Positions 12,335 through 31,720 of a stretch of 64,000 bases of DNA are shown one piece after another (the first letter of the stretch is position 1; each line of letters opens with the position of its first letter). The notes below the pieces were generated by a model. The model was given only the letters and a program-made list of their open reading frames with translations. It ran no database searches and was not told the DNA's origin. The DNA comes from an uncultured SAR86 cluster bacterium (GTDB taxonomy: Bacteria; Pseudomonadota; Gammaproteobacteria; Magnimaribacterales; D2472). A program made the position numbers and the translations under genes. The stretch lies in NCBI GenBank assembly GCA_902582355.1, contig CACHRR010000003.1, forward strand, positions 1-64,000, in the 5' to 3' direction.

Positions 12335-12335
12335 A

Positions 12336-12554: not shown

Positions 12555-12592
12555 ATCCTTATTTTACACGATATTGTTAAATTAGAACTGTA

Positions 12593-12994
12593 TCAGTTAG
12601 TTTTCTTTTTTAGCAGAATTAAAATTGAAATGAATTGAAGTGTACCAATTAGCATGAATAGAAAAATATTTGCTGGAATTCCAAAAGGATTTGGCTCTTG
12701 AATACCTTCTCCAATAGCTAAACCGTCATATAATGGCATTGAAATTATTGCAATAAAGAAACCGAATATAATACATGTACTTAAGATTGCAGGTAAAAAT
12801 GAGTAATTTTTGAACCATAATATATATAAACCAACAACCGCTATTGATAGATTTGTTACTAATCGCCAAACTTCGTGAACTCTAGAGTGCTCATCCCAAT
12901 CAACATTGAAAAGATGTGTATGACCGGTATCAACAATGATAGGAATAATTGAGCCTAAAATTAAACAAATTGTAGTTAAATACTTACTCGTCAT
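12593..12994 (-). CDS. Small four-helix membrane protein of unknown function
   Basis: I do not recognise this 133-residue protein. Four hydrophobic segments can be seen (about 5-22, 46-62, 66-88 and 108-128). The first loop is rich in His and charged residues (HTHLFNVDWDEHSRVHEVWR), which could bind a metal or haem; this is inference. The start overlaps the end of the fumarylacetoacetase-family gene by 11 bases, so the two are translationally coupled, and infA follows after 38 bases. It ends in a Lys-rich tail. Confidence 0.75.
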   Translation of the reverse strand: MTSKYLTTICLILGSIIPIIVDTGHTHLFNVDWDEHSRVHEVWRLVTNLSIAVVGLYILWFKNYSFLPAILSTCIIFGFFIAIISMPLYDGLAIGEGIQEPNPFGIPANIFLFMLIGTLQFISILILLKKKTN

Positions 12995-13889
12995 TTTTAG
13001 GCATTCTAGACTTTAGGAATTCTGGTAAAAATTCTGTATTTGAATGATCGTTCATCTTTACACACTTATTTTCAAGCGTTCCAAGGCCTTCAATTGATGT
13101 TTTGAGAATATCACCATCTTTGAGAAATTTACCTTGTGTTGCACCAACACCAGCAGGTGTTCCAGTAAAGATGACATCACCTGTATTTAAAGTAATAAAT
13201 TCTGATATGTATGATACTAAATAAGGGATATCAAATATTAAATCATCTGTTAGCGTTTCTTGTCTTAGTTCATCATTAACCCAACATTTAAGTTTTAATG
13301 ACTCTTTATTTTCTAAAAGATCTGTAGATACAATATATGGACCGATTGGCCCAAAAGTATCAAATGATTTACCAAGATTAAATTGTGGTGGTGTTGCATG
13401 AAACTGAACAGGTCTATCTGATATATCTTGACCAACACATAAACCTGCAACATGATCCCAGGCTTGATCTTTTGGTATATCTTTTCCAGATTTACCTATT
13501 ACAAATGCTAGCTCTGCCTCATAATCAACCATATCACTTTTCATTTCTATATCGGATTTTGGTCCAGATATACATGTAGAATGTTTTGTAAAAACCATTG
13601 GGAAGGGAGGTACAGGAAGATTGCTTTCTTCTGCATGTTTTTTATAGTTAAGACCAACAGCAAATACATTTCTTGGAATTACTGGTGGGTCCAAAACTAT
13701 ATCATCAATACTTCCAGCTGCTTCATTAACATTTACGTTTTTATACAATTCACTTAAACCATTTTCATTTTCCAATGCTTCTATAGAATTTGATGATATG
13801 GATGCATTTGATATTTCATTTACATCAAAGTACTTATCATCTTTAATTAATATAGCTTTTCCAGAATAACTGCCAAGTTTAAATCCCAT
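12984..13889 (-). CDS. Fumarylacetoacetate hydrolase family protein (hydrolase or hydratase)
   Basis: FAH-family enzymes hydrolyse or hydrate acylpyruvates and 2-oxo acids, often late in meta-cleavage of aromatics. The 301-residue protein has an N-terminal domain (about 1-70) and the FAH core with VGLNYKKHAEE, VDYEAELAFVIGK (metal-binding acidic residues) and CVGQDISDR. FTGTPAGVGATQG near the C-terminus is also typical. No signal peptide, so cytoplasmic. It is divergent from a TonB receptor and the gap contains an operator-like repeat also found before the MhpA-like monooxygenase. Exact substrate cannot be told; oxaloacetate tautomerase/decarboxylase activity is an alternative. Confidence 0.88.
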   Translation of the reverse strand: MGFKLGSYSGKAILIKDDKYFDVNEISNASISSNSIEALENENGLSELYKNVNVNEAAGSIDDIVLDPPVIPRNVFAVGLNYKKHAEESNLPVPPFPMVFTKHSTCISGPKSDIEMKSDMVDYEAELAFVIGKSGKDIPKDQAWDHVAGLCVGQDISDRPVQFHATPPQFNLGKSFDTFGPIGPYIVSTDLLENKESLKLKCWVNDELRQETLTDDLIFDIPYLVSYISEFITLNTGDVIFTGTPAGVGATQGKFLKDGDILKTSIEGLGTLENKCVKMNDHSNTEFLPEFLKSRMPKNDE

Positions 13890-13920
13890 ATTCCTAACTC
13901 CTATAATATTTATCTTATCT

Positions 13921-13934
13921 TAGTCAAGTGACTA
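13921..13934. promoter_or_regulatory. Operator-like inverted repeat between FAH gene and TonB receptor
   Basis: TAGTCAAGTGACTA has perfect 6-base arms (TAGTCA / TGACTA) around AG. It lies 32 bases before the FAH-family ATG and about 115 bases before the receptor ATG. The 11-base word TTAGTCAAGTG (13920-13930) recurs exactly at 22226-22236 in the monooxygenase-dehydrogenase divergent gap. Size and symmetry suit a TetR-type regulator; the regulator gene at 20029-20616 is the natural candidate. The last two points are inference. Confidence 0.55.
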
Positions 13935-14048
13935 GCAATAATCAATTATTAATGGGGCATTGATATGCTTTATTTGTTGGAAAATATATACAAATTATGT
14001 AAACTAACCAAACGGATAGTTAAAAATTTATACATATTGGGGGTATTT

Positions 14049-16451: not shown

Positions 16452-16460
16452 GCTAATTTT

Positions 16461-16487
16461 AAAACCCCCTTGTTTGGGGGTTTTTTT
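16461..16487 (+). terminator. Rho-independent terminator of the TonB receptor gene
   Basis: Nine-base stem AAAACCCCC / GGGGGTTTT (16461-16469 and 16476-16484) with loop TTGTTT, running into seven T in all. It starts ten bases after the stop codon. Confidence 0.9.
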
Positions 16488-16549
16488 ATATATTAAATAT
16501 AAATATTATTTTTAATTTTTTTATAATATTACTAAATTAAAATTATGCT

Positions 16550-17407
16550 ATGAATAATTATGTTTTATATGGTTATGGAGAATCTGTAGCATCAAATGAT
16601 GTTAGATTAGCTTTTGCAGAAAAAAATATACCTTATGATTATAATTTAGTCCGCCTGGAGTCTACTGGCGATCACTTAAAAGATGATTACAGAAAATTAA
16701 ATCCAAAAACAATAGTTCCAACATTAACGGTAAATGGAAAACCTATCTGTGAAAGCATAGATATCATGAAATTTATTGATAAGGAACATCCAGATGGAGG
16801 CAAATTACTTTTTCCTGATGATAGTGATAAATTTAATGAATTGTTAGATTATCTATTTTTGGATGACAAGAAAGATCTAGGCGATACTTTTGGAACTACA
16901 GGAGGTGGGATTTCAGTTCCTGTTCTTGCAAGATTATTATGTAAAAGACCATTTTTTGATGTCCTTAGAGATTATACAAAACATGGTGTCAAAAAAAGAA
17001 AACTAATATTTATAGTGGTGAGGCTTTTAGGTGGACCTCCACCTGGATTATATAAAAAAATGATGTATTTTTTAGCTAAACACCTAGTTTACACCGAAAA
17101 CTATTTAAAACATGGTAAAGAATTTATTTATGGCGATAAATATACAGCAGCTGATTGTCTTTTAACAGTATTACTTCATAGAGTTTATGAAATGAGATTT
17201 TATGATGTTTTTGATGGAAAAATGCTTCCAAATATATCAAAATATTGGAATACTGTATCAACAAGACCAAGTTATAAAGAAGCCATTATTGATTATGAAA
17301 CAGGGGAATGGAAACCTGAATTAGATGCACTATATGGAGATGGAGCAAATACATATAGTGAAATACTAATTGATAATATTAATAAAATTTTAAATAAGGA
17401 GAACTAA
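16550..17407 (+). CDS. Glutathione S-transferase family protein
   Basis: A 285-residue GST-fold protein, longer than the usual 200-220. The N-terminal thioredoxin-like domain (about 3-80) has YGYGESVASNDVRLAFAEK in the active-site position and the glutathione-binding cis-Pro and Glu-Ser motifs (TIVPTLTVNG, CESIDIMKFID). The all-helical C-terminal domain carries YTAADCLLTVLLHR and an insert near 105-165 with several basic stretches. It opens a three-gene operon: two bases before the extradiol dioxygenase. In that setting it could act in thioether formation, dehalogenation, isomerisation of a ring-cleavage product or ether cleavage; none can be chosen from sequence. Confidence 0.88.
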   Translation: MNNYVLYGYGESVASNDVRLAFAEKNIPYDYNLVRLESTGDHLKDDYRKLNPKTIVPTLTVNGKPICESIDIMKFIDKEHPDGGKLLFPDDSDKFNELLDYLFLDDKKDLGDTFGTTGGGISVPVLARLLCKRPFFDVLRDYTKHGVKKRKLIFIVVRLLGGPPPGLYKKMMYFLAKHLVYTENYLKHGKEFIYGDKYTAADCLLTVLLHRVYEMRFYDVFDGKMLPNISKYWNTVSTRPSYKEAIIDYETGEWKPELDALYGDGANTYSEILIDNINKILNKEN

Positions 17408-17409
17408 TT

Positions 17410-18519
17410 ATGACAGAACCTATATGCAAAGTAGCAGATATAATTTACGTAAGATTTCAACTTAAAGAATTTGAAGCACAAAAAAAATATCTTCATCATT
17501 TTGGGATGATGTTAGCTCATGAGGATGAAAATAGTATATTTTTTAGAGGAACTGGAACATCCCCTTATATTTATGTGGCGACAAAGGGTGATGAAAACAA
17601 ATACATTGGAACAGCTTATAAAGCAAATGATTTTTCTGACTTAGAGGCATTATCAAGAGAATTTAATGTAGATATTGTTGAAAATAATGATCCAGGTGGT
17701 GGCAATAAAGTAACCTTAACTGATCCAGATGGTATTGAGGTTGAAATATGTCATGGTATGACTCCTGCTGAACCTGTTGCAGTAGTATCTAAAGTCTTAA
17801 ATACTGGTCAAGCTAAAATTAGAGAAAAAAATGTTGTTCAAAGATTTGGTAATGCAGCTGATGAATGGCAACTTAAAGATGATAAATGGGTATATGAATT
17901 GTCATCTAAAGTTAAGCGATTAGGACATACTGCAATAAATTGTAGAGATCCAAAGGCATCAGTTGATTGGTATGCAAACGTAATTGGTTTCCTTGTAAGT
18001 GATAACTTAGTTGCTCCTGATGGAAATAGTATGGGTGCTTTTATGAGATGTAATCAAGGGGATAAACCTGTTGATCATCATACAATCAATAATATTGCTT
18101 TACCTGGAGATAATTATCCAGGAGCTTACGGGCATGCAGGATATGAAGTTTCAGACTCAGTTGATGATCTAATGGCTGGTCACTATCATTTAAAAACCAA
18201 TGGTGAATACTATCATGAATGGGGTATTGGTAGACATCTCCTTGGTAGTCAAATGTATGATTACTGGAGAGATCCACATGGATTTACACATGAACATTGG
18301 ACAGATGGCGATTTAATAGATGCTAGTGTTCCTTCCAATGATGTAAGTCTATTTGAATTTGGAAAAGCCCAATACGGGCCACCACCTCCAGCAACATTTG
18401 GTCATACTATGCCAGTTGAAGAAGTTGATAAAGTTCGTGCTCAAGTGCCTGATCTATATGAAGGTGTTTTAAAAGATCTTGCTAAAATGGAAAAAGAAAT
18501 GCAGAAAACTAATGATTGA
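17410..18519 (+). CDS. Two-domain VOC-fold extradiol ring-cleavage dioxygenase
   Basis: Type I extradiol dioxygenases use Fe(II) to open catechols next to the hydroxyls. The 369 residues hold two vicinal-oxygen-chelate domains (about 8-120 and 170-300). Candidate metal ligands lie in the second: H173 in KRLGHTAIN, H223/H224 in VDHHTINN, and E295 in GFTHEHW, the His-His-Glu set of BphC-type enzymes; GHAGYEV (about 241-247) matches the active-site His region. A 65-residue Pro-rich tail (YGPPPPATFG) follows, close to that of 2,3-dihydroxybiphenyl dioxygenase-like proteins. Shine-Dalgarno AAGGAG lies just upstream. Its end overlaps the nitroreductase start by eight bases. Substrate unknown; gluconolactonase or glyoxalase functions are less likely. 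Confidence 0.85.
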   Translation: MTEPICKVADIIYVRFQLKEFEAQKKYLHHFGMMLAHEDENSIFFRGTGTSPYIYVATKGDENKYIGTAYKANDFSDLEALSREFNVDIVENNDPGGGNKVTLTDPDGIEVEICHGMTPAEPVAVVSKVLNTGQAKIREKNVVQRFGNAADEWQLKDDKWVYELSSKVKRLGHTAINCRDPKASVDWYANVIGFLVSDNLVAPDGNSMGAFMRCNQGDKPVDHHTINNIALPGDNYPGAYGHAGYEVSDSVDDLMAGHYHLKTNGEYYHEWGIGRHLLGSQMYDYWRDPHGFTHEHWTDGDLIDASVPSNDVSLFEFGKAQYGPPPPATFGHTMPVEEVDKVRAQVPDLYEGVLKDLAKMEKEMQKTND

Positions 18520-19174
18520 ATTTACTGAAGAACAAAAAAAGGCAATTTCTGATGCTCAAGAAAAATTTTCAAGTATAAAAGATAATCCAGATTTATTGAC
18601 TGAATCTCAATTAGATCTTCTTTTTGGTCAGGCAAGAAGTATGAATGGCTGGAAAGACAAAGGTATAAGTGATGAGATGCTTCATAGTTTATATGAATTG
18701 GTTAAGATGGGACCCACCAGCACAAATTCCTGTCCTGCTAGATTTGTTTTCATTAAAAGCTCTGAAATGAAAGAAAAAATTAAAGATGCTCTTTTACCAA
18801 ATAATGTTGAAAAATGTATGACCGCACCAGTAATTACAATAATTGGATACGATTTAGATTTTTCTGATTATATGGGTAAATTATTTCCTCATATGGATGT
18901 TGCCCCAATGTATAAAGGTAATAGTGATATGAACTTTGCTACAGCTTTTAGGAACGGATCACTTCAAGGAGCCTACTTAATGATTATAGCTCGTGCAATG
19001 GGTCTTGATTGTGGTCCCATGTCAGGATTTAATAATGAGCTAGTTGATGAATTATTTTTTAAAGATACGAATATTAAATCAAATTTCTTATGTTGTTTAG
19101 GATATGGTGATCCTTCAAAGATATTTTTTAGATTACCAAGACTTGATTTTGATGAAGTTTGTGAGATTATTTAA
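18512..19174 (+). CDS. RutE/HadB-like nitroreductase family flavoprotein
   Basis: FMN/NAD(P)H oxidoreductase, 220 residues. LFGQARSMNGWKD (about 36-48), VKMGPTSTNSCPARFVF and GLDCGPMSGFNNELVDE closely follow RutE, the putative malonic-semialdehyde reductase of pyrimidine breakdown. ATG 18512 lies inside the end of the dioxygenase gene; an earlier TTG is unlikely. In this operon it might reduce a semialdehyde or quinone arising from ring cleavage (inference). No other rut gene is nearby, so a pyrimidine role is not supported. Its stop shares TTAA with the convergent GST gene. Confidence 0.88.
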   Translation: MIEFTEEQKKAISDAQEKFSSIKDNPDLLTESQLDLLFGQARSMNGWKDKGISDEMLHSLYELVKMGPTSTNSCPARFVFIKSSEMKEKIKDALLPNNVEKCMTAPVITIIGYDLDFSDYMGKLFPHMDVAPMYKGNSDMNFATAFRNGSLQGAYLMIIARAMGLDCGPMSGFNNELVDELFFKDTNIKSNFLCCLGYGDPSKIFFRLPRLDFDEVCEII

Positions 19175-20028
19175 TTAAAATCAACTAAATCAGTTACATA
19201 TTTCTTTCTAAGCTTATAAATTATTTTTAATATTTTGCTTGTGATTAAAAGTGGCAAGTCTATATTTATTTCTTTAGAAAAATTACTATTGTTATTTAAT
19301 TTATCAAACCATTTTTTTACATTTTTATATTTATATATTGGTATGCCTGAAGTTAATAATCTTTTAGTTGATACATACCAAGCAAGATCAACAACTGTAA
19401 AGTTATTTCCTTTTAAATAAGTTTGATTTGCAAGAATTTTATTAAATTCTTGATAAACTTTTTTAAATTTAGTTGCTGATTTAATTACTTCTTCATCAGT
19501 AATCCCATATTTGTAGTGATTCTTCCAAAAAGTAATTTCTTTATTTTTATGTGCATCTGGTAAGCCTTGAATGGTTCCCTTGGATTTTTCCTTCTTAGAC
19601 AGCATGTCAGGAGTCTTTTTACCTAAAGAATGAGGAATTATATATCTAAATGTTAATCTTCTTAGATCATGATGAAGACTATCTTCAAATTCAAGATCAT
19701 TAATTATTTCATCTATCATATGGACTGGAAATAATCTCTTTTCACTAAAAATTCCGTCTAAATATCTCATAATTTCATTACTTTCTATATGTACTTCTCC
19801 ATCGTGAACAAGTGTTGGAACAAGTCCCCTTGGATTTATTCCTAAAAACCACTCGGAGAATTGTTCTTGTTTTATTAAATTAATAATATGTGAATTCCAT
19901 TCTATATTTTTTATATTAAAAAAAATTCTTAATTTTTGTGAACATGCTGAACCACTAAAATGTAAAAGATGTATACCTTTCCAATCAAGGATTTCTTTAG
20001 TTGAAATATCAGATTTATTTAATTTCAT
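19171..20028 (-). CDS. Glutathione S-transferase family protein, beta-etherase-like N-terminus
   Basis: A 285-residue GST-fold protein. The thioredoxin-like domain (about 17-95) has HFSGSACSQKLRIFF with Ser/Cys at the active-site turn, INPRGLVPTLVHDG and ESNEIMRYLD. The INPRG-VP pattern resembles the Lig-type GSTs that cleave aryl ethers, but the family is broad and this is only a resemblance. The helical C-terminal domain has VVDLAWYVSTKRL. It is the last gene of the leftward operon FAD monooxygenase - tetR - GST, following tetR with no gap. Confidence 0.85.
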   Translation of the reverse strand: MKLNKSDISTKEILDWKGIHLLHFSGSACSQKLRIFFNIKNIEWNSHIINLIKQEQFSEWFLGINPRGLVPTLVHDGEVHIESNEIMRYLDGIFSEKRLFPVHMIDEIINDLEFEDSLHHDLRRLTFRYIIPHSLGKKTPDMLSKKEKSKGTIQGLPDAHKNKEITFWKNHYKYGITDEEVIKSATKFKKVYQEFNKILANQTYLKGNNFTVVDLAWYVSTKRLLTSGIPIYKYKNVKKWFDKLNNNSNFSKEINIDLPLLITSKILKIIYKLRKKYVTDLVDFN

Positions 20029-20616
20029 TTATTTACTAAGTACTTTATTAATTCCATGTTCTCTAACTTCATAAAAGTATTCCATAAAAACTTTTTTATC
20101 TTTTGCAGTCATTTCAAGTACCTCATTAATATATTCTTCCATAGCAGATAATCCAAATTCAACAACCATGGCTATTGCAATTGCAGATTTCATTTCTGAT
20201 GTTGGTTTATTTTGATTCTTTAACTTTGTCAATTGATTCAATGTTTCTCTAGACATAGATAATCCAGAGTCAATTTGAACTCTAACCAAGTACATTTGAT
20301 CGTCTAAAACAGCTCTAATTATTGCTTTGAAATAGTCTTCAGTAATTGATGATAGTGGTTCATCACCAAGATTGGTTGGAGATATATGTCTTCTCTCTAA
20401 TTGTTGAACATGCTCAAAAGCAAGTTGTTTGTATGTAGCTATTAATAGACCTTTCTTACCGCCAAAATAATGATGTATTTGCGCATGATTAACTCCAGCA
20501 TGATCTGCAATATCTCTAATTGTTAACTGGTTAGGCCCAACAGAACTGACCAAAAATGCTGCTGAATCTATTAAACGTTTTTCAACATTTTTTCTTCCTC
20601 TATGATTATTACTCAT
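20029..20616 (-). CDS. TetR family transcriptional regulator
   Basis: One-component repressor, 195 residues. The N-terminal HTH domain is clear: LTIRDIADHAGVNHAQIHHYF near 34-54, followed by GGKKGLLIATYK. The helical C-terminal ligand domain is not assignable. It lies between the MhpA-like monooxygenase (11 bases upstream) and a GST on the same strand, so it is expressed with the genes it probably controls. The operator-like repeats at 13921 and 22227 are plausible targets (inference), which would make it an autoregulated local regulator responding to a pathway substrate. Confidence 0.93.
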   Translation of the reverse strand: MSNNHRGRKNVEKRLIDSAAFLVSSVGPNQLTIRDIADHAGVNHAQIHHYFGGKKGLLIATYKQLAFEHVQQLERRHISPTNLGDEPLSSITEDYFKAIIRAVLDDQMYLVRVQIDSGLSMSRETLNQLTKLKNQNKPTSEMKSAIAIAMVVEFGLSAMEEYINEVLEMTAKDKKVFMEYFYEVREHGINKVLSK

Positions 20617-20627
20617 CTGGCTTTAAC

Positions 20628-22196
20628 TTATATTAATTCATCAATTAATTTATGTGTAAGTTTATCAATGTCATTGACAACGTTCTCATGTCCAACACAT
20701 CCATAAATATGTTGATCTGGTCTATATATTGTCGCAGCAATATTGTTTTCTGTTGACCATCTAGAAATTTTTTTATCTTTATTAAATTCATGGTCTTCAT
20801 CTATAAGATATATATGATCTTTAAATATTTTTGATGAATCTAATTTTTTAATTTCATCATATATATTATTAGTATTATCAAATACTAAGATCCCAAAGTT
20901 ATTACCAAGAAATTGATCAAATAGCTTGTTTTCAACTTTAATATTAAGAGAAGGGTGAGGAATAATCACACCATTAACATCATTAGGAAATAATTCTTTA
21001 TCAATTATTCCATTTTTAATCTTCCATGGTTTTTGAAATTTTAATGGTCTTAGAAGCCTTGGTATATAGCTGGCAATATTTAGGTAAATATCTCTTAAAG
21101 TTGCTGTAAACCAATCTTGGCTTCCAATTATATCACCTTGTTTCATTGCACCTTTTATTACAAAATCTACAATTCCTTTTCTTTCCACTGTATAAGTATC
21201 TAAGATTTTTTTGTTAAAAGTATTATTAATCACTCCAGATAATTTCCAACATAAGTTATATGAATCTTTTATGCCTTGGCATAGGCCTTGACCTAAAAAT
21301 GGTGGCATTTGATGAGCAGCATCACCTAAAAGATAGCAATTATTAAATCTAAAATTATTAGCTAATAGGCCATGAAATGTATAAGCACTAGATCGTAATA
21401 ATTTTCCACTATGCAACGGAATTTCTGGATTTAACCTCCAAAGATGTGGCTGCATCATTTTACGAATATTTTTCTCATCTTCTAATGTCTCTAAATTATC
21501 ATCAGAATTAACTTTAAATTCCCATCTAACATGTTGTCCTGTTATCGGAACAATTGTTGTTGGTCTTTTGTAGTCACATATCTGATATCTGTCTGTATTT
21601 ATTTTATATTTATCATCCACCTGATAATCTACAACAACCCAATCTTGGTCACATTTATAGTCAAAAGATTCTATATTTAATGCCTTCCTTACAAAACTAT
21701 TAGCGCCATCGCATGCTAAAACATAATCACAAGTGACATATTCTTCTTCGTTATTTGTATTTAATAAAATTAAGTTGTTAATGGATTGTCGTGCTTCTAT
21801 ATCAGTTAACTTATAGCCAAGTTTTATATCAATATTTTTATGTTTAATAGCTTCACTTCTTAAAAATCTTTCAAATATAGGCTGATTAAAGAAAACACTT
21901 TCATCATAACCATTAATTGGTTCATCTAGCTTAAGATTGATATTAACAATTGACTTGCCTTTATTATTTAAAAAATTTATCCCTTCCATTGGATGAATTA
22001 TCTTTGAAATTTCATCCATAAAACCCATTGATTGAAATATTCTTTGAGTTTGTCCATCAAAATGAACAGCTCTTGGAATATCCCAAATTTCCTCTTTTGG
22101 CTCTATAACAATAGTACTAAAACCTTTTTGTCCAAATAAATTTGCAGTTACAGCTCCGACTGGGCCATAACCAATTATTGCAATATCATAGTGCAT
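20628..22196 (-). CDS. MhpA-like FAD-dependent aromatic monooxygenase
   Basis: Class A flavin monooxygenases hydroxylate phenolic rings using NAD(P)H and O2. The 522-residue protein shows the FAD dinucleotide motif G9-Y-G-P-V-G14, the DG motif ACDGANSFVRK (161-171), and the second FAD motif GDAAHQMPPFLGQGL (291-305). WDIPRAVHFDGQT after the first motif and the overall length match 3-(3-hydroxyphenyl)propionate hydroxylase relatives, which convert a phenol to a catechol. The gene leads the leftward operon with tetR and a GST. An extradiol dioxygenase able to cut such a catechol lies 2.1 kb away. True substrate not determinable. Confidence 0.92.
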   Translation of the reverse strand: MHYDIAIIGYGPVGAVTANLFGQKGFSTIVIEPKEEIWDIPRAVHFDGQTQRIFQSMGFMDEISKIIHPMEGINFLNNKGKSIVNINLKLDEPINGYDESVFFNQPIFERFLRSEAIKHKNIDIKLGYKLTDIEARQSINNLILLNTNNEEEYVTCDYVLACDGANSFVRKALNIESFDYKCDQDWVVVDYQVDDKYKINTDRYQICDYKRPTTIVPITGQHVRWEFKVNSDDNLETLEDEKNIRKMMQPHLWRLNPEIPLHSGKLLRSSAYTFHGLLANNFRFNNCYLLGDAAHQMPPFLGQGLCQGIKDSYNLCWKLSGVINNTFNKKILDTYTVERKGIVDFVIKGAMKQGDIIGSQDWFTATLRDIYLNIASYIPRLLRPLKFQKPWKIKNGIIDKELFPNDVNGVIIPHPSLNIKVENKLFDQFLGNNFGILVFDNTNNIYDEIKKLDSSKIFKDHIYLIDEDHEFNKDKKISRWSTENNIAATIYRPDQHIYGCVGHENVVNDIDKLTHKLIDELI

Positions 22197-22225
22197 GTTT
22201 GTATTATATTTCTTGTTGATTTATT

Positions 22226-22249
22226 TTAGTCAAGTGGATAAAGTAGTCA
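22226..22249. promoter_or_regulatory. Operator-like repeats between FAD monooxygenase and mmsA
   Basis: TTAGTCAAGTG (22226-22236) is an exact copy of the word at 13920-13930. Here the second arm is degenerate (TGGATA instead of TGACTA), but a further TAGTCA half-site follows at 22244-22249. The whole lies in the 72-base gap between two divergent catabolic genes, where a repressor would control both. Confidence 0.5.
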
Positions 22250-22268
22250 ATAAATATAATTTATTATT

Positions 22269-23756
22269 ATGTATACAGTAGATAATTTTATAAACGGTAA
22301 GTCTGATTCAACTTCGTCTAAATCATCAAAAATTATAAATCCATCTTACGGAAAGGATATAGGTGAAGTTTTATATGCATCAAAAGAATCTGCTAATACA
22401 GCAATTCATGCTGCATCAGAAGCCTTTAAAACTTGGTCTAAAACTGGAATGAGTTACAGAGCTGAGTTAATTTTAAAATTTAGACAAGGAGTAATCGATA
22501 AATCCTCTGAAATTGTTGATATATGCATTAAAGAAGCAGGTAAAACTAAACCAGATGCAGAAGCAGAACTTGATCGTGCTATTCAGGCTTTGACACATGC
22601 ATCAGGTATTCAACATTTTTATCCTGCTCATATTAGTCGAAATGTTGCTGGAAATATTGATATAGCTGATATGAGATATCCAATCGGTGTTGTTGCAGGT
22701 GTAGGACCTTTTAATTTTCCAATATTAATTCCAATACTTCATAGTTCAATGGCTCTTGTTACTGGAAATACTCATATAGCTAAACCAAGCGAGAAAGTGC
22801 CATCTATATCAAGACTATATGCTGATATTTATAAAGATGTTGGATTACCAGATGGATGTTATAACGTTATTAATGGTGGTAAAGATATTGTCGAGTATAT
22901 TGTTTCACATCAAAAAGTTGATGGATTAGCATTTATTGGAAGCACTAACGCAGCAAGAAGCTTGAAATCTCTGGGTGTTAAAAATAATACCAAAGTACAA
23001 GCACTTGGCGGTGGAAAAAATCATATGATTGTTTTGCCAGATGCAGACCTTGACATGGCAGCTGATGCTGCAGTTTCAGCAAGTTTTGGTGCAGCAGGTC
23101 AAAGATGTATGGCTGTATCAGTTGTTGTTGCTGTAGGAGATATAGCAGATGAATTAGTTTCAAAAATTAAAGAAAGAATACCTAATATCAAAATGGGTGT
23201 TACAGATAATAATGATACAGAACTTGGTCCTGTTATATCAAAAGATAATAAAGATCGCATATGTTCCTTTATTGAATCTGCTGAACCTGAAGGTGCAACT
23301 GTATTAGTTGATGGAAGAAAAAAATCTGATTCACTAAATGGATGTTTTGTCGGCGCCACTTTAATTGATAATGTAAAACCCGGTATGTCTGTTTACGAAA
23401 ATGAAATTTTTGGACCCGTACTGTCATTTGTAAGAGCAAAAACATATGAGCAAGCAATGAATATTTTAGATAGTCATAAATTAGGGAACGGAGCTGCATT
23501 ATTTACTCGTGACGGTGGAGCTGCAAAAAAATGGGCAGATGAAGTTCAAGCTGGTTCTATTGGAATAAATGTACCAATTCCTTTACCAACATATGCACAT
23601 AGTTTTGGAGGATGGAAAGAAAGTGGATTTTCAGAAACAAAGGCTTTTGGACCCTCTTCAATAGATTTTTACACAAAGACTAAATCCATTGCAACAAAAT
23701 GGCCGGATCCAAAAAATAGTAAAGTTGACTTAGGCTTCCCAAAAAACGACAACTAA
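22269..23756 (+). CDS. mmsA: CoA-acylating methylmalonate-semialdehyde dehydrogenase
   Basis: Oxidises (methyl)malonate semialdehyde to propionyl- or acetyl-CoA with NAD and CoA. The 495-residue aldehyde dehydrogenase has the catalytic C280 in FGAAGQRCMAVS, the cofactor site FIGSTNAAR (about 222-230), and GGGKNH (247-252), where ordinary aldehyde dehydrogenases have a Glu and this CoA-acylating group has Asn. GPFNFPILIPILHSSMALV is also typical of MmsA/IolA. It is the first gene of the operon divergent from the FAD monooxygenase and is followed two bases later by an alpha/beta hydrolase. It may serve valine breakdown or the end of the local catabolic route. Confidence 0.93.
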   Translation: MYTVDNFINGKSDSTSSKSSKIINPSYGKDIGEVLYASKESANTAIHAASEAFKTWSKTGMSYRAELILKFRQGVIDKSSEIVDICIKEAGKTKPDAEAELDRAIQALTHASGIQHFYPAHISRNVAGNIDIADMRYPIGVVAGVGPFNFPILIPILHSSMALVTGNTHIAKPSEKVPSISRLYADIYKDVGLPDGCYNVINGGKDIVEYIVSHQKVDGLAFIGSTNAARSLKSLGVKNNTKVQALGGGKNHMIVLPDADLDMAADAAVSASFGAAGQRCMAVSVVVAVGDIADELVSKIKERIPNIKMGVTDNNDTELGPVISKDNKDRICSFIESAEPEGATVLVDGRKKSDSLNGCFVGATLIDNVKPGMSVYENEIFGPVLSFVRAKTYEQAMNILDSHKLGNGAALFTRDGGAAKKWADEVQAGSIGINVPIPLPTYAHSFGGWKESGFSETKAFGPSSIDFYTKTKSIATKWPDPKNSKVDLGFPKNDN

Positions 23757-23758
23757 TA

Positions 23759-25000
23759 GTGACAATTATTGGTAAATATATTGCATATTTTATATTTATC
23801 TTTATAGACTTATATATATATATAAAAATTTTTTTTCGTGAATATTTCTTTTACTCTCCAAAGATAAATAATATTGGATTTATTAAAAGATTTATAAATA
23901 TAGATGGACAAAATCATAAAATCTATGAATTTGGAAACATTAATGCATCAGATCAAAATACTTTACTCTTAATTGGTGGTATTCCAACAGATCCTATGGA
24001 CTCAATGACATGGTTAGCCAATGAAATATATTTAATTAACAAGAATTTGAGAGTCATCATTTTGAACATGCCATATTATGAAAAAAATTTTAGTATAGAT
24101 GCTGAAAATGAATACGCTATTTCAAATGGAAGAGATTTAATTACAGATAAAGTTATTGACTTTTCTGCTACAAGGGTTGATTGTAAATTTTCTCATGAAA
24201 ATCAAGGAAAAAAAATTAAACATTTTCTAGAAGCTTTAAATATTAACTCTTGCCATCTAGTAGGGCATGATAGGGGGGCTGTAATATTAGAATATTTTGC
24301 AATTAATTATCCTGAAAAAGTACTAAGCTTCTCTAGAGGCTCTCAGGTATGGAATTATTATGAATCAGAATGGGAGGCTCTTGCTCCAGATATTTGTGTT
24401 GGACCACCTCATTCAATTATGTCTACTTATCATCAAATTAGAATATTATTGTTTGCAGTTATTTTTTTAAAAAAACCACTAGATCTATTATCAGATACAT
24501 TTGATTTGAATGGTAAGAAAGCATTAAAAGGAACTCATTTATATGATAGATATACACACGTTAAATATAAATCACAAATATCTTATAAAAGTTACTTTTA
24601 TAAATTCAAACAGTCTCTCATTCAGGGTGGTAAGCATAGTGAGATTGATAATAGATCAAAACTTTTGGATACCAACTTTCCGATTATGCAATTTCAAGGC
24701 GAGGACGAATTTAAATATAATAAATCAGGTACTTTAATTTCAGATCAACCTTACTTTGGAAAATATAATTTATTCAGGAATGAAATTGAAGATCTTTATC
24801 CAGGTTGCGTTGGACAAGAATTTAACAAGTATCAAAGCCAATATGTTACAGAAAAGAATGCTTATAAAGAAATACAATTAAAGCCAAATGCTAGATTTTC
24901 TAAATTTTGTTTAATTCCAGATTCTGCTCACTTTAACGTAATAGAAAATCCCAATAGTTGCGCAAGTGCAATTGTAGATTTTATTGAAAAAATTAACTAG
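23759..25000 (+). CDS. Membrane-anchored alpha/beta hydrolase with Asp nucleophile
   Basis: A 413-residue alpha/beta hydrolase. The GTG start two bases after mmsA gives an N-terminal membrane helix (about 6-27). The nucleophile elbow is LVGHDRGAV with D171, as in epoxide hydrolases and haloalkane dehalogenases, not the Ser of esterases; the probable catalytic His is in PDSAHFNVIEN near 395. GGIPTDP near 73-79 is the oxyanion region. It lacks the Trp following Asp that haloalkane dehalogenases use to bind halide, so an epoxide hydrolase or another C-X hydrolase is more likely. Its stop overlaps the convergent sulfatase gene by eight bases. Confidence 0.83.
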   Translation: MTIIGKYIAYFIFIFIDLYIYIKIFFREYFFYSPKINNIGFIKRFINIDGQNHKIYEFGNINASDQNTLLLIGGIPTDPMDSMTWLANEIYLINKNLRVIILNMPYYEKNFSIDAENEYAISNGRDLITDKVIDFSATRVDCKFSHENQGKKIKHFLEALNINSCHLVGHDRGAVILEYFAINYPEKVLSFSRGSQVWNYYESEWEALAPDICVGPPHSIMSTYHQIRILLFAVIFLKKPLDLLSDTFDLNGKKALKGTHLYDRYTHVKYKSQISYKSYFYKFKQSLIQGGKHSEIDNRSKLLDTNFPIMQFQGEDEFKYNKSGTLISDQPYFGKYNLFRNEIEDLYPGCVGQEFNKYQSQYVTEKNAYKEIQLKPNARFSKFCLIPDSAHFNVIENPNSCASAIVDFIEKIN

Positions 25001-26555
25001 ATTTTAAAAAAAATCTTATAAATAAACCAAATAATACAATGGCCAAAATAGTCATAATAACTATTTCTTTATATGCCAAAATCATAATCCATATAAATAA
25101 CACTGAATTAATAAAAGGTGAGGGCGGTTCCTTTAGTTCATAATCTCTATCTAGCCAGGGATTTCCAATAAACCTAGTTTCTTCTGTAAATCTATCTCCC
25201 CATAAAAACATCATTACAGGATCAATTTTTGGCGGATTCATCCAAAGAGTCTGATTATCTATTGTGTTTTTCATTTCATTAAATACTTCTTTATATTGTT
25301 GGGATAAGTCTTGTGTTTCATATGGATCATTTAATATATCGTAAAGTTCATATGTTTTAGGACCATTTGCCTGTATATTTTGACTGTAGAATAGTTTCCA
25401 TTTTCCATTAAAAAGAGCTCTTTCGTCAGTTATAACTATATTGCCAGTGTGTACATTTATTGGTTCCTTAATATCATTATTGAGTAAATCATTCCATCGA
25501 TCGACACCTGTAAAAGGTGTGTCATTTAGTTCAATAGAGACTGCTGATAAAAGTGTTGGTAATAGATCTTGTGCGAAGAAAAATTGATCAGATTTTCCTC
25601 CCTCGAGGACGCCTTTCCAATAAATTACAGCAGGAACTCTAATACCTCCTTCATATGCTGAAAGTTTACTACCTCTTAATTTTCCTGAACTACCTCTTGC
25701 AGATAAAAGATCAGGAGCTATAACTTTTGCTATTGGATCAACGTCAAAAACAGGACCATTATCACTAAAAAATATAATAATTGTTTCCTCAAGAAGATTT
25801 GAATCTTCAATAGCATTAATAATTTTTCCAATTTCTCTATCTAAAGAAAAAATATTAGCGGCATATTTTTTATCGTAATCATTATCTATATTTTCAAACA
25901 ATTCAATATCACTTACCTCAGCCTGAATTGGCGTATGAGGTGCATTAAAAGCAACATATAAAAAAAGTGGTGCAGATGTATCTTTATTCTCAATTATTCT
26001 TACAGCCTCATTTGCAATTAAAGTAGTTGAATAACCATCTTCATATAAAACTTCTCCGTTTCTATGCCAATCTAATCTTCCTGAAAAACCATGATCAAAG
26101 TAACCAATACCTCCCATAAGATGTCCATAAGTTGAATCAAAACCTCTATTTATTGGTAAGAAAGCTTCTTCGGACATACCTAAGTGCCATTTTCCTGACA
26201 AAGCTGTAATATATCCTGCGTCTTTTAAAAATTCCGGCATAATTTTGTGCTCAAGTGGCATTCCAAATGATTCAACTCTTGGATTAGCAAAGGGGCGAAC
26301 AACTCCATTTGCAAAGTTGTTAATGCCTGTAAGCATAGATGCTCTTGTAGGGCTACATGAAGGATCAGCATAAAATCTATTCATCTCTAAACCTTTTGAG
26401 ACCAAACTATCAATATTAGGTGTTGGAATCGTGCCACCATGATATGAAACATCACCCCAACCAAGATCATCTGTTAATATAATTACTATATTAGGTTTTG
26501 AATTTAAAGTTGTAATATTGGATATTAAAACAAAAAAGATAAAGATAAATTTCAT
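24993..26555 (-). CDS. Type I (formylglycine) sulfatase, exported
   Basis: Hydrolyses sulfate esters with a formylglycine made from cysteine. I chose the start at 26555, which gives a clean signal peptide (about 1-18, MKFIFIFFVLISN...) and 520 residues; an in-frame ATG at 26600 would add 15 residues and overlap the divergent gene. Metal-binding NIVIILTDDLGWGD follows (D29, D30), then the modification site C67-S-P-T-R71 in CSPTRASMLTG, and GKWHLGM and SDNGP further on. A C-terminal hydrophobic segment (about 493-515) may anchor it. No maturase gene is in the window. Substrate unknown, arylsulfatase-like. Confidence 0.93.
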   Translation of the reverse strand: MKFIFIFFVLISNITTLNSKPNIVIILTDDLGWGDVSYHGGTIPTPNIDSLVSKGLEMNRFYADPSCSPTRASMLTGINNFANGVVRPFANPRVESFGMPLEHKIMPEFLKDAGYITALSGKWHLGMSEEAFLPINRGFDSTYGHLMGGIGYFDHGFSGRLDWHRNGEVLYEDGYSTTLIANEAVRIIENKDTSAPLFLYVAFNAPHTPIQAEVSDIELFENIDNDYDKKYAANIFSLDREIGKIINAIEDSNLLEETIIIFFSDNGPVFDVDPIAKVIAPDLLSARGSSGKLRGSKLSAYEGGIRVPAVIYWKGVLEGGKSDQFFFAQDLLPTLLSAVSIELNDTPFTGVDRWNDLLNNDIKEPINVHTGNIVITDERALFNGKWKLFYSQNIQANGPKTYELYDILNDPYETQDLSQQYKEVFNEMKNTIDNQTLWMNPPKIDPVMMFLWGDRFTEETRFIGNPWLDRDYELKEPPSPFINSVLFIWIMILAYKEIVIMTILAIVLFGLFIRFFLKSS

Positions 26556-26587
26556 ATACAATATTATATAAAAATATTCGGTATAAA

Positions 26588-27064
26588 ATGAAAGTTTCAA
26601 GTTATATAAAAATTAAGAAATCAGCTAATGAAGTTTTAAATCTTATTAAAAGTCCAAATAATTTAGAAAAATTTCATCCATATTGTATTAGTAATAAAGT
26701 AGATATTTGGGATCGTGAGAAATCAGTTGATTATGTTCATTATTACAGTGGAAAAATTTATAAAAGAAAATTTACTGAATGGAATAAGAATGGCTATGTA
26801 TTAGATATATATAATGAAGTAAAAACTGCAACTATTTCATGGATTGTAAAACCAGAAAAAACAAAATCAATCGTAATAATTGAAGCTGATGCTATTTTAC
26901 CTTTTAATAATGTATTTATTAGATATATAGTCTTTCATTTATATATTAAGTTTATGATACGAAATTATCTGAATAGCGTTTTAAAAGGTTTAAAGTATCA
27001 TTTAGAAAAAGATGAATTAGTTATTGAAGATCAATTTGGTAAACATGATTGGTATTCAGCGTAA
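26588..27064 (+). CDS. SRPBCC-fold (START/polyketide cyclase-like) protein
   Basis: A 158-residue protein of the helix-grip (SRPBCC) type, judged from the opening pattern KVSSYIKIKKSANEVLNLIKSPNNLEKFHP (about 2-31, beta strand then helix) and the closing long helix (about 125-150). Such proteins bind hydrophobic small molecules. No catalytic residues can be named. It is divergent from the sulfatase with only 32 bases between the start codons, so the two share a promoter region. Confidence 0.65.
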   Translation: MKVSSYIKIKKSANEVLNLIKSPNNLEKFHPYCISNKVDIWDREKSVDYVHYYSGKIYKRKFTEWNKNGYVLDIYNEVKTATISWIVKPEKTKSIVIIEADAILPFNNVFIRYIVFHLYIKFMIRNYLNSVLKGLKYHLEKDELVIEDQFGKHDWYSA

Positions 27065-27076
27065 TCAATTATTTAA

Positions 27077-27092
27077 CATAATATATATTATG
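27077..27092. repeat. Perfect 16-base AT palindrome in a convergent gap
   Basis: CATAATATATATTATG reads the same on both strands. It lies 12 bases after the SRPBCC gene stop in the 173-base gap before the glutaminase 3' end. It could fold into a weak transcript-end hairpin, but it is AT-rich and may have no function. The rest of the gap (27093-27237) shows only a weak AGATT/AATCT hairpin near 27150 and no gene. Confidence 0.35.
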
Positions 27093-27237
27093 CGAAACAA
27101 TACATATTTTCAATTATCTTAGATCTCCACTACTTTGGCTATAGTAAGCAGATTTTTTAGTAATCTAATAATAATATAGCTTTTAAAGGAATATAATATT
27201 TTATGAATTCAGTTAGCCGAATATAATCAATATAAAA

Positions 27238-29325
27238 TTATTTCATCAATTCAGTTAAAAATACATTAACAGAATCTCTTTTTTCTCTTTTAGCTTCATC
27301 TAATGGAGTTGCGCCCCATCGATCCCTAACATATAGAGGATGACCATGTGAAACTAAATATTTTACTGCATCTAAACTTCCCTCAGCAGCTGCAAGATGA
27401 AGAGCAGTTCTCGAATCATAGTCACCTGCATGAACAGGAACACCTTGTGCCACCAACTGTCGAATTCCGTTAACATCGTTCTCGGCAGCTGCAAAAAGTA
27501 ATTCAATAACTAATGATTCGTTTTCATAAACAGCAAATTCATCACTATTCCCATTTGGATCTTCTATATAGTGAAGAGGTTCAGTGTACTCAATATCAAG
27601 TTTACTAAATATATCAACAATTTCTTTATGATCATTATTTTTTGCATCAGATATAGGATAACCACCCCATCTATCAGGAATTGGTTTAACACCCTCATTT
27701 AATAGAAAATTTACAACCTCAATATGACCCTCAGCTGATGCTAGATGTAATGGTGTTCTTCTATCATAATCACCAACTTCTAAGTTTCTTTGACTACTTA
27801 CCAACCTTTCCAAGGTTCTTATACTTCCGTTGCTAGCTGCCCAAATTGCTTCAGCACAATTATTTGCTCTCCATCTTGCGATTGGTAATCTAGGATCAAT
27901 CCGTTTCGTATCAGTCATTGTTCCATCAAAAAGATGGACAAGATATCTTTCTGTTATTTCTTTTGCGACCTCAAGTCCTCTTATGCTATTTCCAACAAGA
28001 TCTAATCTAGGTGAGAAAATACAAATACCCATTAATTGAGGAACAACTAAAAATATTCCCCCTCCTACACCGCTCTTTGCGGGCAATCCAATGTCTTGAA
28101 AGAATTCACCACTGCCATTATACATACCAGCCATTTGCATTACAGGCAAACAACTTCTTACAGTTCTTTGGCTTAAAACACGATCTTGTGTAACTGGACA
28201 TACACCACTATTTGCAAGAGTAGCAGCAGCCATGGCAATATCTTTTGCAGTCATTTCTAATGAACATAAACTAAAATACAATTTCAAAGCATTTGTTACA
28301 CCTGGCTCTACATGAAAATCAAATTCATATTCACTATCTTTATGTTTATCCTCTTCGATTTCAGTTCCAGAATGAGGAAGATTTCCTGTAGCCATTAATA
28401 AAAAACCAGTTGCAATATTGTTATAACCTGTAAAATTCTCCTGCCTAGCAACGTTTTTATTAAATCTAGGCATATCAATATTAGATTTTTTTTCTATTTT
28501 TTGTCCTCGATAATATGATGCATTCTTTGGTTTAAACCAACCAATTAATCTGCCAAATTCTTCTCTTATGTATTGGAGTCTTTCAGTAGGAGTATCTTCT
28601 GGATTTATTAAACCCGTAGTCATAATTGCACCTGCATTTACCATTGGATTAAAAGGAACACGATCATTTGGTTTTAAACTACTACCACCCATATTCCTAG
28701 TCATCAAAGTTAAATCATCAAATTGTCTTCCAGAAGGTTCTGCACTAACATGATTGCTGACTTTTTCTAATCCTAATTTTTCTAAAGCAATACAATAGTT
28801 AAATGGTTTTACCATTGACTGAATTGAAAAATCCACATTTGACTCTCCGCGTTGATATACCTGACCATCAATTGTAACTATAGCGATACCAAATTGTTCA
28901 GGATCAACTTCTTTTAAAGGTGGAATATATGAAGCTAATTCACCAGACGTGTTTGGCTTTACTTTTTCATAAATTTTATCCATGTTTTGTGAAAAATCTT
29001 GAAAATCTGGAATGGCTAACTCACCTCTCAATGACTTTTGAACTAGCAGTGGTGATGTTCTAATAATACTTAAAAAATCTTCAAATGAAATATTATTTTT
29101 GTGATTGTGCAACTTATTAAAAAGAGATTCAAGCCTATCATCAGATTGTTGAAGACCACTATTAAAGATAATTTCTTTAAATCTTTCAACTTCTATAAAG
29201 TCATTATTATTCTCACATAGTGAAAAAAATAGATTCGCCTCCTTATCTGTAGCTTGTTCTTTTAGCTTATCAATTGTGGATCCATCGTTTATGGCAACTC
29301 CCCTATAAGTCACTTCATTTTTCAT
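27238..29325 (-). CDS. glsA: Animal-type glutaminase with EF-hand-like N-terminus and duplicated ankyrin modules
   Basis: Hydrolyses glutamine to glutamate and ammonia. The 695-residue protein has the domain order of vertebrate kidney glutaminase. An EF-hand-like four-helix region (about 20-105) comes first. The beta-lactamase-fold glutaminase core (about 125-465) follows, with S170-M-V-K173 as catalytic Ser-x-x-Lys, FNPMVNAGAI (225-234), Y402 in MYNGSGEF and GLPAKSGVGGG (413-423). Ankyrin repeats come last. Here the ankyrin part is doubled (about 487-580 and 603-695); both copies carry GDYD-R-T-LHLA and DRWG. An insert near 268-295 is extra relative to the animal enzyme as I recall it. The short bacterial GlsA has only the core. 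No signal peptide. Monocistronic. Confidence 0.93.
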   Translation of the reverse strand: MKNEVTYRGVAINDGSTIDKLKEQATDKEANLFFSLCENNNDFIEVERFKEIIFNSGLQQSDDRLESLFNKLHNHKNNISFEDFLSIIRTSPLLVQKSLRGELAIPDFQDFSQNMDKIYEKVKPNTSGELASYIPPLKEVDPEQFGIAIVTIDGQVYQRGESNVDFSIQSMVKPFNYCIALEKLGLEKVSNHVSAEPSGRQFDDLTLMTRNMGGSSLKPNDRVPFNPMVNAGAIMTTGLINPEDTPTERLQYIREEFGRLIGWFKPKNASYYRGQKIEKKSNIDMPRFNKNVARQENFTGYNNIATGFLLMATGNLPHSGTEIEEDKHKDSEYEFDFHVEPGVTNALKLYFSLCSLEMTAKDIAMAAATLANSGVCPVTQDRVLSQRTVRSCLPVMQMAGMYNGSGEFFQDIGLPAKSGVGGGIFLVVPQLMGICIFSPRLDLVGNSIRGLEVAKEITERYLVHLFDGTMTDTKRIDPRLPIARWRANNCAEAIWAASNGSIRTLERLVSSQRNLEVGDYDRRTPLHLASAEGHIEVVNFLLNEGVKPIPDRWGGYPISDAKNNDHKEIVDIFSKLDIEYTEPLHYIEDPNGNSDEFAVYENESLVIELLFAAAENDVNGIRQLVAQGVPVHAGDYDSRTALHLAAAEGSLDAVKYLVSHGHPLYVRDRWGATPLDEAKREKRDSVNVFLTELMK

Positions 29326-29438
29326 ATTTAAATTATATTTATTATTTCATTAGTTTATACGAACATTGTATTTAATTATTATACATTTTCTAACTTAAGG
29401 CCAATTTAAAATTAGATAAACAATAAGCTAGTATTTTT

Positions 29439-30479
29439 TTATGATGAAGAGCCTATAGCAACAGGTCTTATTGGTGATCCTGCACTTCCCTTAGATCTTA
29501 AAGGCAATACCATTGTACATGATACATAAACTGAATCATTAGCCAATTTTTTTAAATTAAGATTTTCAAGTGTATATACACCTACTTTTGTAAGAAAGTA
29601 GTCATGAACTGGAAAGCTTTGATTTGGTGGAGTTCCTACAGGTTGTTTAAAATCATTAGGATTATTAGGATCTGGTCTGGCGTCAACACAGCAAGTATCT
29701 AGCCCTACTCCAATTACTTTTTTTGATGCCAAATATTTAGCTGCACCATAAGATATCCCAGGTGCTGTAGAATAATAAATTTTATCAATGTCAGGATCTT
29801 GGTAGTAATCGCTCCATCCTGTATATATCATAACTACATCACCAGACATAATTCCTCTTTTGTTTAGCTTCGGTGATTTTTTTATAGCTTGTTTTATATG
29901 ATCTTCTGTTATAAATTCACCAGCCTTGAAGCTTTTGCCATTATTCGAGTATTTTTTAACATCAATTAATATACCTGAGGTAATAATTGGTGGTATAGAA
30001 TCAGCACCTAAATGAAGCAGTGGGGAGTCAGGTGTTGGTTTTACATCTTTTTGTGTAAGTCCGCCCAAGTATTTAATATCTTCTTGATTCAATTCGGACT
30101 TTCCATCCCATATTTCTTCAGTATAAGCAAAATGACCAAATGCATCCATCTGTGTTCCTTGATTGGCAGTATTAACGTCTTCATTTAAAACATCCATATT
30201 TGCGAGCTGAACTTCATTTGGAGTGGGACCTGTAGGAAGATACTTTGGCTCAAATTTACCAGCAAAAGGAGATAAAGGCATTGATCCTGACCTAATATAT
30301 GAAAGCTCATATATATTGGTCTCACTTGATATCATTTCTTTTGCACATCTTGACCATGTTTCGTTTCCAAGATGATTTGACATGCCTATTTGATACATTG
30401 CATCATCTGATGAATAGACTGAATTTATTATAAAGAAAGAAATGAATATTTTTTTATGAAGTTTTATTCCATAAATCAT
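29439..30479 (-). CDS. Exported cyclase family protein (kynurenine formamidase fold)
   Basis: Metal-dependent hydrolase of the PF04199 family, 346 residues. A hydrophobic N-terminus (about 10-22) ending near SVYSSDD suggests export. The metal-binding motif is present as NQGTQMDAFGHF (about 108-119; usual form HxGTHxDxxxH, so the first His is replaced). SGILIDVKKY, MIYTGWSDYY and GVGLDTCCVDA are further family-like blocks. The start overlaps the end of the quinol-monooxygenase-like gene by four bases, so the two form an operon. Relatives hydrolyse N-formylkynurenine, isatin or lactones; the substrate here is open. Confidence 0.85.
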   Translation of the reverse strand: MIYGIKLHKKIFISFFIINSVYSSDDAMYQIGMSNHLGNETWSRCAKEMISSETNIYELSYIRSGSMPLSPFAGKFEPKYLPTGPTPNEVQLANMDVLNEDVNTANQGTQMDAFGHFAYTEEIWDGKSELNQEDIKYLGGLTQKDVKPTPDSPLLHLGADSIPPIITSGILIDVKKYSNNGKSFKAGEFITEDHIKQAIKKSPKLNKRGIMSGDVVMIYTGWSDYYQDPDIDKIYYSTAPGISYGAAKYLASKKVIGVGLDTCCVDARPDPNNPNDFKQPVGTPPNQSFPVHDYFLTKVGVYTLENLNLKKLANDSVYVSCTMVLPLRSKGSAGSPIRPVAIGSSS

Positions 30480-30781
30480 ATTTCTTCATATTTTGGACCA
30501 CAAAGCGCTACTTTTATAGCTGCTGCGCCGCCCTCTAAAATTGGTTCTAATGCAGTTAAAAGACCTGTTTCTATTCTCCAATTAAGGTAGCTAGCTTGAT
30601 GTTCAAGAGACTCCCAATCTTCAATTAAATGAACGGTATTGGATGATTCATCAATAAATGTGTCTACAGAAATACATCCATCATATGATCTCGTATCTGG
30701 TAGAGCTTCTTTTAATGATTGTTTAAGGATTTCTAAAGTATCTGCCTTTGCAGGAAATGAGACTATCACTAAATTTTTCAT
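30476..30781 (-). CDS. Antibiotic-biosynthesis-monooxygenase domain protein (putative quinol monooxygenase)
   Basis: A 101-residue ferredoxin-like alpha+beta protein of the ABM (YgiN) type. It opens KNLVIVSFPAKADTLEIL, then DTRSYDGCISVDTFID and NTVHLIEDWESLEHQASYLNWR, the strand-helix-strand pattern with the family's conserved Trp and His. Such proteins act as cofactor-free oxygenases on quinols or as stress proteins. It leads a two-gene operon with an exported cyclase-type hydrolase and is divergent from a secreted protein gene across 144 bases. Confidence 0.82.
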   Translation of the reverse strand: MKNLVIVSFPAKADTLEILKQSLKEALPDTRSYDGCISVDTFIDESSNTVHLIEDWESLEHQASYLNWRIETGLLTALEPILEGGAAAIKVALCGPKYEEI

Positions 30782-30925
30782 AATATTCCTTAAGTGTTTG
30801 TATAATATTTAATAATATAACAAATTAAACCTTTTTCCGAACAATAAAAATTATTATCAATAAATATTGTATTATTTAAGATGATATATTTTAATTAAAT
30901 ATTACATTTCAAAGGAGATAAAAAA

Positions 30926-31651
30926 ATGCAAAAGTATGTATATTCTTTTTTAATAGTTTTTTCATTTAATTTATTGGCAGACGATCATAATAACGTTATG
31001 CCTGGTGATGAAACAGGTGAGTTTCATTATTTCAATGTAACAAATCCAGCTGGTTTCGTAAAAGCTATTGATAAACATTATGGCTCTGAATGTGCTGCTA
31101 ATTGGCAAAAGGAGTCAGGAGCAGAAGTTGTTTTAATGCAAATCCTTGGATCAAGAAATACTCATTTCATTTATGTAGGGTATAAAGATAATGAGATGCT
31201 AGAAAAAGGCAGAAATTTATTTTCTTCATGTCAAGAGACTGCAGAAATGATTAGGTCTTTAAATAAATACTCTTCCCCATCAGAATACGGAAGCCGACTG
31301 GGAGAGCAGTCACTTCAGGTTGGAGATTGGACAAAAGATAAATATTTTATGAAGTTTGATTTTGAAGTAGAAATTGGTCAAGCAGGAAAATATGCATCAG
31401 AATGGACAAAGATGAATAATTTATTAGATTTACCTAATTCTGCCGGTTTGGTAACTCATAGAGCAGGAAATGGATGGGCATCACATTTTGTTTATGTTGG
31501 AGCAAATTCTATAGATGAACTATATAGTACGTTTGATGATATTCAAAAAACTCCAGCATTTGTTGAATTTACAAAAAATGTTAACTCAATAAGGGAAGTT
31601 AAAAATGTTACGTTAATTCAACCTATAAAAGCTTATCCATCAACAAGATAA
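30926..31651 (+). CDS. Secreted protein with two related domains, function unknown
   Basis: I do not recognise the family. The 241 residues begin with a signal peptide (about 1-17, ending LLADDH). Two similar halves follow: about 28-105 (FHYFNVTNPAGFVKAID, HFIYVGYKDNEML) and about 128-215 (FMKFDFEVEIGQAGKYASEW, HFVYVGANSIDELYSTF). Each has a strand, a helix and an HF-YVG strand, which suggests a duplicated ferredoxin-like dimeric alpha/beta-barrel domain (inference). A strong AAAGGAGAT ribosome binding site and its own terminator mark it as a single, probably well-expressed gene. Confidence 0.8.
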   Translation: MQKYVYSFLIVFSFNLLADDHNNVMPGDETGEFHYFNVTNPAGFVKAIDKHYGSECAANWQKESGAEVVLMQILGSRNTHFIYVGYKDNEMLEKGRNLFSSCQETAEMIRSLNKYSSPSEYGSRLGEQSLQVGDWTKDKYFMKFDFEVEIGQAGKYASEWTKMNNLLDLPNSAGLVTHRAGNGWASHFVYVGANSIDELYSTFDDIQKTPAFVEFTKNVNSIREVKNVTLIQPIKAYPSTR

Positions 31652-31656
31652 TATTT

Positions 31657-31682
31657 AGGGGCTAATCTAAGCCCCTGTTTTA
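31657..31682 (+). terminator. Rho-independent terminator after the two-domain secreted protein
   Basis: Seven-base stem AGGGGCT / AGCCCCT (31657-31663, 31670-31676) with loop AATCTA, then GTTTTAA. It begins six bases after the stop codon. Confidence 0.85.
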
Positions 31683-31720
31683 ACATAGTTATAATATAAT
31701 CTTTAAATACAATAACTTTT

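Follow-up and report, generated by a model that had tools for sequence, protein, structure and literature searches.

The window analysed here, a stretch of 64,000 nucleotides from an uncultured SAR86 cluster bacterium, carries an ankyrin-bearing glutaminase gene at 27238..29325 on the minus strand. What is a protein with the domain order of the vertebrate kidney-type enzyme (GLS) doing in a marine bacterium, and what does it say about the origin of this architecture and about the control of glutaminase filaments? With a probability of roughly 0.78, we read the window protein as a working, probably cytoplasmic glutaminase from a divergent lineage of the ankyrin-bearing GLS family, which would lack the phosphate-filament switch of animals and is carried as mobile cargo.

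Domains, active site and inserts of the window protein

The gene is an intact single open reading frame of 695 amino acids. A second genome, G874, carries a copy with 95% amino-acid identity (overall dN 0.030, dS 0.459 between the two), so neither chance nor misassembly explains this real, conserved gene. Pfam places an EF-hand_14 domain at residues 31-106 (29008..29235, minus strand; 29.5 bits against a cut-off of 23.7), and the Glutaminase family PF04960 covers the catalytic core at residues 128-466 (27928..28944, minus strand; E 4e-88, 295.6 bits against a curated cut-off of 27). The protein also passes the NCBIfam model of glutaminase A, TIGR03814, with 268.2 bits against 255.4. Two Ank_2 stretches follow; ankyrin module 1 lies at residues 489-570 (27616..27861, minus strand) and ankyrin module 2 at residues 606-686 (27268..27510, minus strand). 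This order of EF-hand_14, glutaminase core and ankyrins is the GLS-type architecture. The preliminary description had read the vertebrate domain order and a doubled ankyrin module (residues 487-580 and 603-695) from the letters of the DNA, and both readings hold. The EF loop of the window protein, CENNNDFIEVER, is not a canonical calcium loop.

Among PDB sequences, the window protein matches human kidney-type GLS (5uqe, E 5e-95) and liver-type GLS2 (8szl) best. The AlphaFold model of the window protein has a pLDDT of 83 and a pTM of 0.85, and in fold it comes closest to human KGA 8gwr and 5uqe, with TM-scores by target of 0.84-0.86 for the best chains; the best structural match of this predicted model is near full-length human KGA. 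Thus, the human enzymes 5uqe, 8gwr and 8szl share with the window protein the domain order, the fold and the active-site residues that we checked. These are Y133, S170, K173, N230, E296, N303, Y350, Y402 and V420, and all nine, which comprise the catalytic Ser-x-x-Lys, the tyrosines and the substrate contacts, are identical to those of human GLS. The short GlsA/GlsB enzymes, such as B. subtilis YbgJ and E. coli YbaS, share the catalytic core with the window protein but have no EF-hand and no ankyrins.

The window gene is under strong purifying selection. Between the two genomes, dN is 0.007 in the glutaminase core (dN/dS about 0.02) and 0.007 in ankyrin module 2, where dS is 0.65 and dN/dS about 0.01. 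We infer that the protein converts glutamine to glutamate and ammonia, probably in the cytoplasm, and that catalysis most likely relies on the Ser-x-x-Lys pair of the family together with the tyrosines. By analogy with what has been reported for GLS2 and KGA (PMC10912226), the EF-hand-like domain and the ankyrin modules would most likely serve as assembly or restraint domains around a tetramer. No second glutaminase was found in the genome of the window, which is 80% complete.

The core is nevertheless unusual among its relatives. Seventeen of 79 near-invariant positions are changed in the window protein, against at most 10 in every other member; L062, a locus close to it in the core tree, retains 77 of the 79. 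The changed sites include R387, S380, C463 and D467, which lie near catalytic residues in the sequence. R387 and C463 are constant also in all seven short enzymes compared, and R387 is changed in the window protein alone among all long and short forms compared. Judging from these changes, the enzyme may act on a different substrate or be weakly active, and it may be retained for some other task, such as hydrolysing another amide or supplying ammonia in special conditions. The nine catalytic and substrate-contact residues are all kept, the TIGR03814 cut-off is passed, and the dN of the core is very low, so we regard this explanation as rather improbable and favour an ordinary glutaminase.

The preliminary description had noticed an insert near residues 268-295. 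It is present at about residues 263-282 (insert 2; 28480..28539, minus strand), and it turned out that there are two more. Insert 1 lies in the activation loop at about residues 208-218 (28672..28704, minus strand), making it 11 residues longer than in human GLS, and insert 3 lies at about residues 321-342 (28300..28365, minus strand). Model confidence is low at all three (low pLDDT at 196-222, 267-282 and 320-336, respectively). Between the two genomes, insert 2 differs by three amino acids; inserts 1 and 3 differ by none (no change throughout residues 320-343). This indicates that inserts 1 and 3 are probably functional, and, taken together with the low dN of ankyrin module 2, that these parts matter.

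Bacterial relatives and the filament interface

The preliminary description treated the animal-type architecture as a rarity in bacteria. Genome contigs were scanned with a profile of the ankyrin part, which gave 238 confirmed stretches, and 80 loci were kept; since they were chosen via the ankyrin motif and many are MAGs, they are not a random sample. The 80 bacterial loci span at least 11 named phyla. Among the 47 members whose domains were scanned, all have the glutaminase and ankyrin domains and 46 have EF-hand_14, so the notion of a rarity has to be dropped. The full architecture is found, as in the window protein, in Francisella (L010), Nannocystis (L027), Salinispora (L031), Pedobacter (L069) and Leptolyngbya (L059). 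Exactly two ankyrin modules occur in 15 of the 80 loci and one in the remainder. The window protein is therefore a divergent member of a known ankyrin-bearing GLS family that is widespread in bacteria. Scans of the class and of a phylum sample found few EF-hand_14 genomes (5 of 369 and 2 of 398), which shows that the form is patchy and not universal. In plasmid and phage collections, the only matches were short glutaminases and generic ankyrin proteins, and a scan of viral contigs gave no relative. The origin of the human glutaminase ankyrins is reportedly the subject of a 2017 paper by Pasquali.

Several members of the family show features of their own. Canonical calcium-binding EF loops are present in the N-terminal regions of L006, L020, L026, L059, L073, L082, L085 and L088 and absent from the human and window proteins; these loops raise the possibility that some bacterial glutaminases are controlled by calcium. 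L093/L100 (G083:C6:167296-169137) has two glutaminase matches in what seems to be one 682-residue frame, possibly a tandem fusion. The ankyrin-bearing frames of L041 and L081 (1005 and 1052 residues) have several hundred extra residues ahead of the usual domains. L109 (G976:C573) has a long-type core in which no ankyrin module was found, possibly by secondary loss, as in animal GAC.

The preliminary description also proposed the window protein as a case of filament control. Mammals are the sole group in which the filament interface is defined. We took the mammalian phosphate-site and interface positions from PMC13142944 (section 4) and PMC10912226 and mapped them onto the window protein. The phosphate site R317/K320/R387 reads Q/D/N, so none of its three residues is kept. 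The interface F355/F373/F378/D412/Q416 reads L/F/A/K/S, with F373 as the sole residue kept. Thus, in comparison with human GLS and GLS2, the window protein has two ankyrin modules and three inserts and lacks the phosphate site and most interface residues. Together with the 11-residue insert in the activation loop, this suggests that the window lineage most likely does not use the phosphate-triggered filament switch of animals; the switch is probably absent from the protein. With four of five interface residues and the checked phosphate-binding residues missing, the window protein does not serve as a model of filament control. Its use is that of an out-group.

Contacts other than the mammalian interface could substitute in the window protein. 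Regulated filaments might form through a rebuilt interface in which the second ankyrin module and the inserts provide new contacts, and the constancy of inserts 1 and 3 speaks for this. We consider it unlikely, as four of the five known interface residues are changed and the ankyrins of GLS2 and KGA hinder both activity and filament formation (PMC10912226). The reading as a glutaminase without the animal switch is preferred.

Of greater interest is how the window protein contrasts with its bacterial relatives, which appear to have the interface residues without the animal phosphate site. Unlike the window protein, nearly all bacterial ankyrin-glutaminases retain F355, F373, F/Y378, D/E412 and Q416. 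In the 75 other bacterial long forms, these residues are kept at 91-100% (F/Y and D/E allowed); the seven short forms keep them at 14-71%. At position 317, 8% of the 75 have R or K, and none has K320. L062 lacks F355, F378 and Q416, and F355 and F378 are changed in both L062 and L108. When compared to random five-column sets, the interface gave values of 0.035 for conservation and 0.016 for the long-short difference; because this enrichment is modest, we treat the conservation of the interface as a lead. A recent review, which takes its bacterial examples from the short enzymes of Bacillus, states that the filament interface is absent from bacterial glutaminases (PMC13142944).

Phylogeny and the link with type II glutamine synthetase

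The core tree (58 rows, 318 columns) is unrooted, and its eukaryotes are human sequences only. In this tree, the ankyrin-bearing proteins, the window protein included, separate from the short GlsA forms sampled with a support of 99/98. Human GLS and GLS2 form a clade with all the other bacterial long forms (99/98), from which the window pair and L062/L108 are excluded. The window protein thus branches outside the clade of the human enzymes, and in the unrooted tree it adjoins the short GlsA. The node between the window protein and L062 has a support of 85/59, and a single clade of the window protein with L062/L108 is compatible with the data (p 0.40). The window branch is long, and therefore its exact placement is uncertain. 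With a root between the short and the long forms, the window and L062 lineages would be the first to diverge.

The preliminary description found in the protein phrases closely recalling the animal enzyme. When the human and window sequences are forced into one clade, the log-likelihood falls by 23 units (AU p 0.08), and the human proteins fall with other bacteria, so that a special closeness to animal GLS is disfavoured and this part of the description finds no support. Since the window protein lies apart from the clade of the human sequences, towards the short GlsA, it appears less animal-like than most of its bacterial relatives. The outcome opposite to that description, a grouping with the short GlsA and an independent gain of ankyrins, was not seen either: the long and short forms are split at 99/98, and in the ankyrin tree the modules cluster with those from other bacterial glutaminases.

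The nearest known relatives outside the genus are L062/L108 (MAG Deltapro3 PKDJ01000347; G999), with 46-48% identity by tblastn. They share with the window protein the two ankyrin modules and the linker motif ARWRA or RWRA. Unlike it, they are without inserts 1 and 2, their insert 3 is small, and they adjoin a type II glutamine synthetase gene. The two ankyrin modules of the window protein are 30% identical to each other. In the ankyrin tree, each module sits with its counterpart in L062/L108, with a support of 94/91 for the first copies and 99/86 for the second. This one-to-one pairing indicates that the doubling predates the split of these lineages; the alignment of 95 columns is too short for an exact count of duplications across the family. 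Acquisition of an animal or other eukaryotic GLS gene by the marine bacterium is very improbable, for although the domain order is the same and human GLS tops the PDB matches, these matches included no bacterial long glutaminase and so say little, human GLS groups with other bacteria apart from the window protein in a tree whose eukaryotes are human sequences only, and the doubled ankyrins match those of bacterial L062/L108 copy by copy. The window protein does bear on the origin of the domain architecture, as had been proposed.

A type II (eukaryote-type) glutamine synthetase lies within flanks of up to 5 kb in 33 of the 80 loci, for example L010, L027, L031 and L062. In 31 of the 33, it is on the same strand as the glutaminase, and these loci belong to seven named phyla. 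This linkage suggests joint regulation of the two enzymes in many bacteria. In contrast to these loci, the window has no type II glutamine synthetase beside the glutaminase gene. The only glutamine synthetase found in the genome of the window is a short type II form, L141 (G000:C2:107997-108428), which adjoins an NtrB-like histidine kinase gene.

We tentatively put forward, as a doubtful but possible scenario, that the animal filament is a bacterial inheritance. On this view, the interface residues would be younger than the branching-off of the window and L062 lineages and would have arisen among other bacterial ankyrin-glutaminases. Many bacteria would have coupled the enzyme to type II glutamine synthetase in a module for glutamate and glutamine, and phosphate control would be the only later addition, made in animals. 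If this is true, the window lineage is a living out-group from before the interface. Nearly all bacterial ankyrin-glutaminases keep the interface residues without the phosphate-site lysine, and most of these interface residues are missing from the window and L062 lineages; owing to this contrast, the timing of the origin of filament control can be tested with a few purified bacterial proteins.

Movement of the glutaminase gene

Of the 203 genomes of the order, two have the gene, and the second of them, G874, belongs to the same genus as the window. A comparison of gene order in relatives showed that the gene lies in a variable cargo region (12335..31720), bordered by a conserved 746-residue gene (10094-12334) on one side and an M14 peptidase gene (31721-34573) on the other. 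In both genomes the glutaminase gene occupies the interval next to the M14 peptidase gene, and in the five relatives read, the matching interval holds other genes and no glutaminase. That two genomes have both the gene and its setting in common argues against contamination. The GC3 of the gene resembles that of its neighbours, and hence a recent transfer from a distant genome is not obvious.

Between the two genomes, the glutaminase gene is far more alike than its surroundings. Its two copies are 75% identical at fourfold sites, whereas five genes of the neighbourhood reach 36-43%; dS is 0.46, against 1.3-2.0 for the same five. The two copies thus parted later than the adjacent genes did, which indicates that the gene moves between species. 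Apparently, the glutaminase in this genus is an optional cargo gene passed from one species to another.
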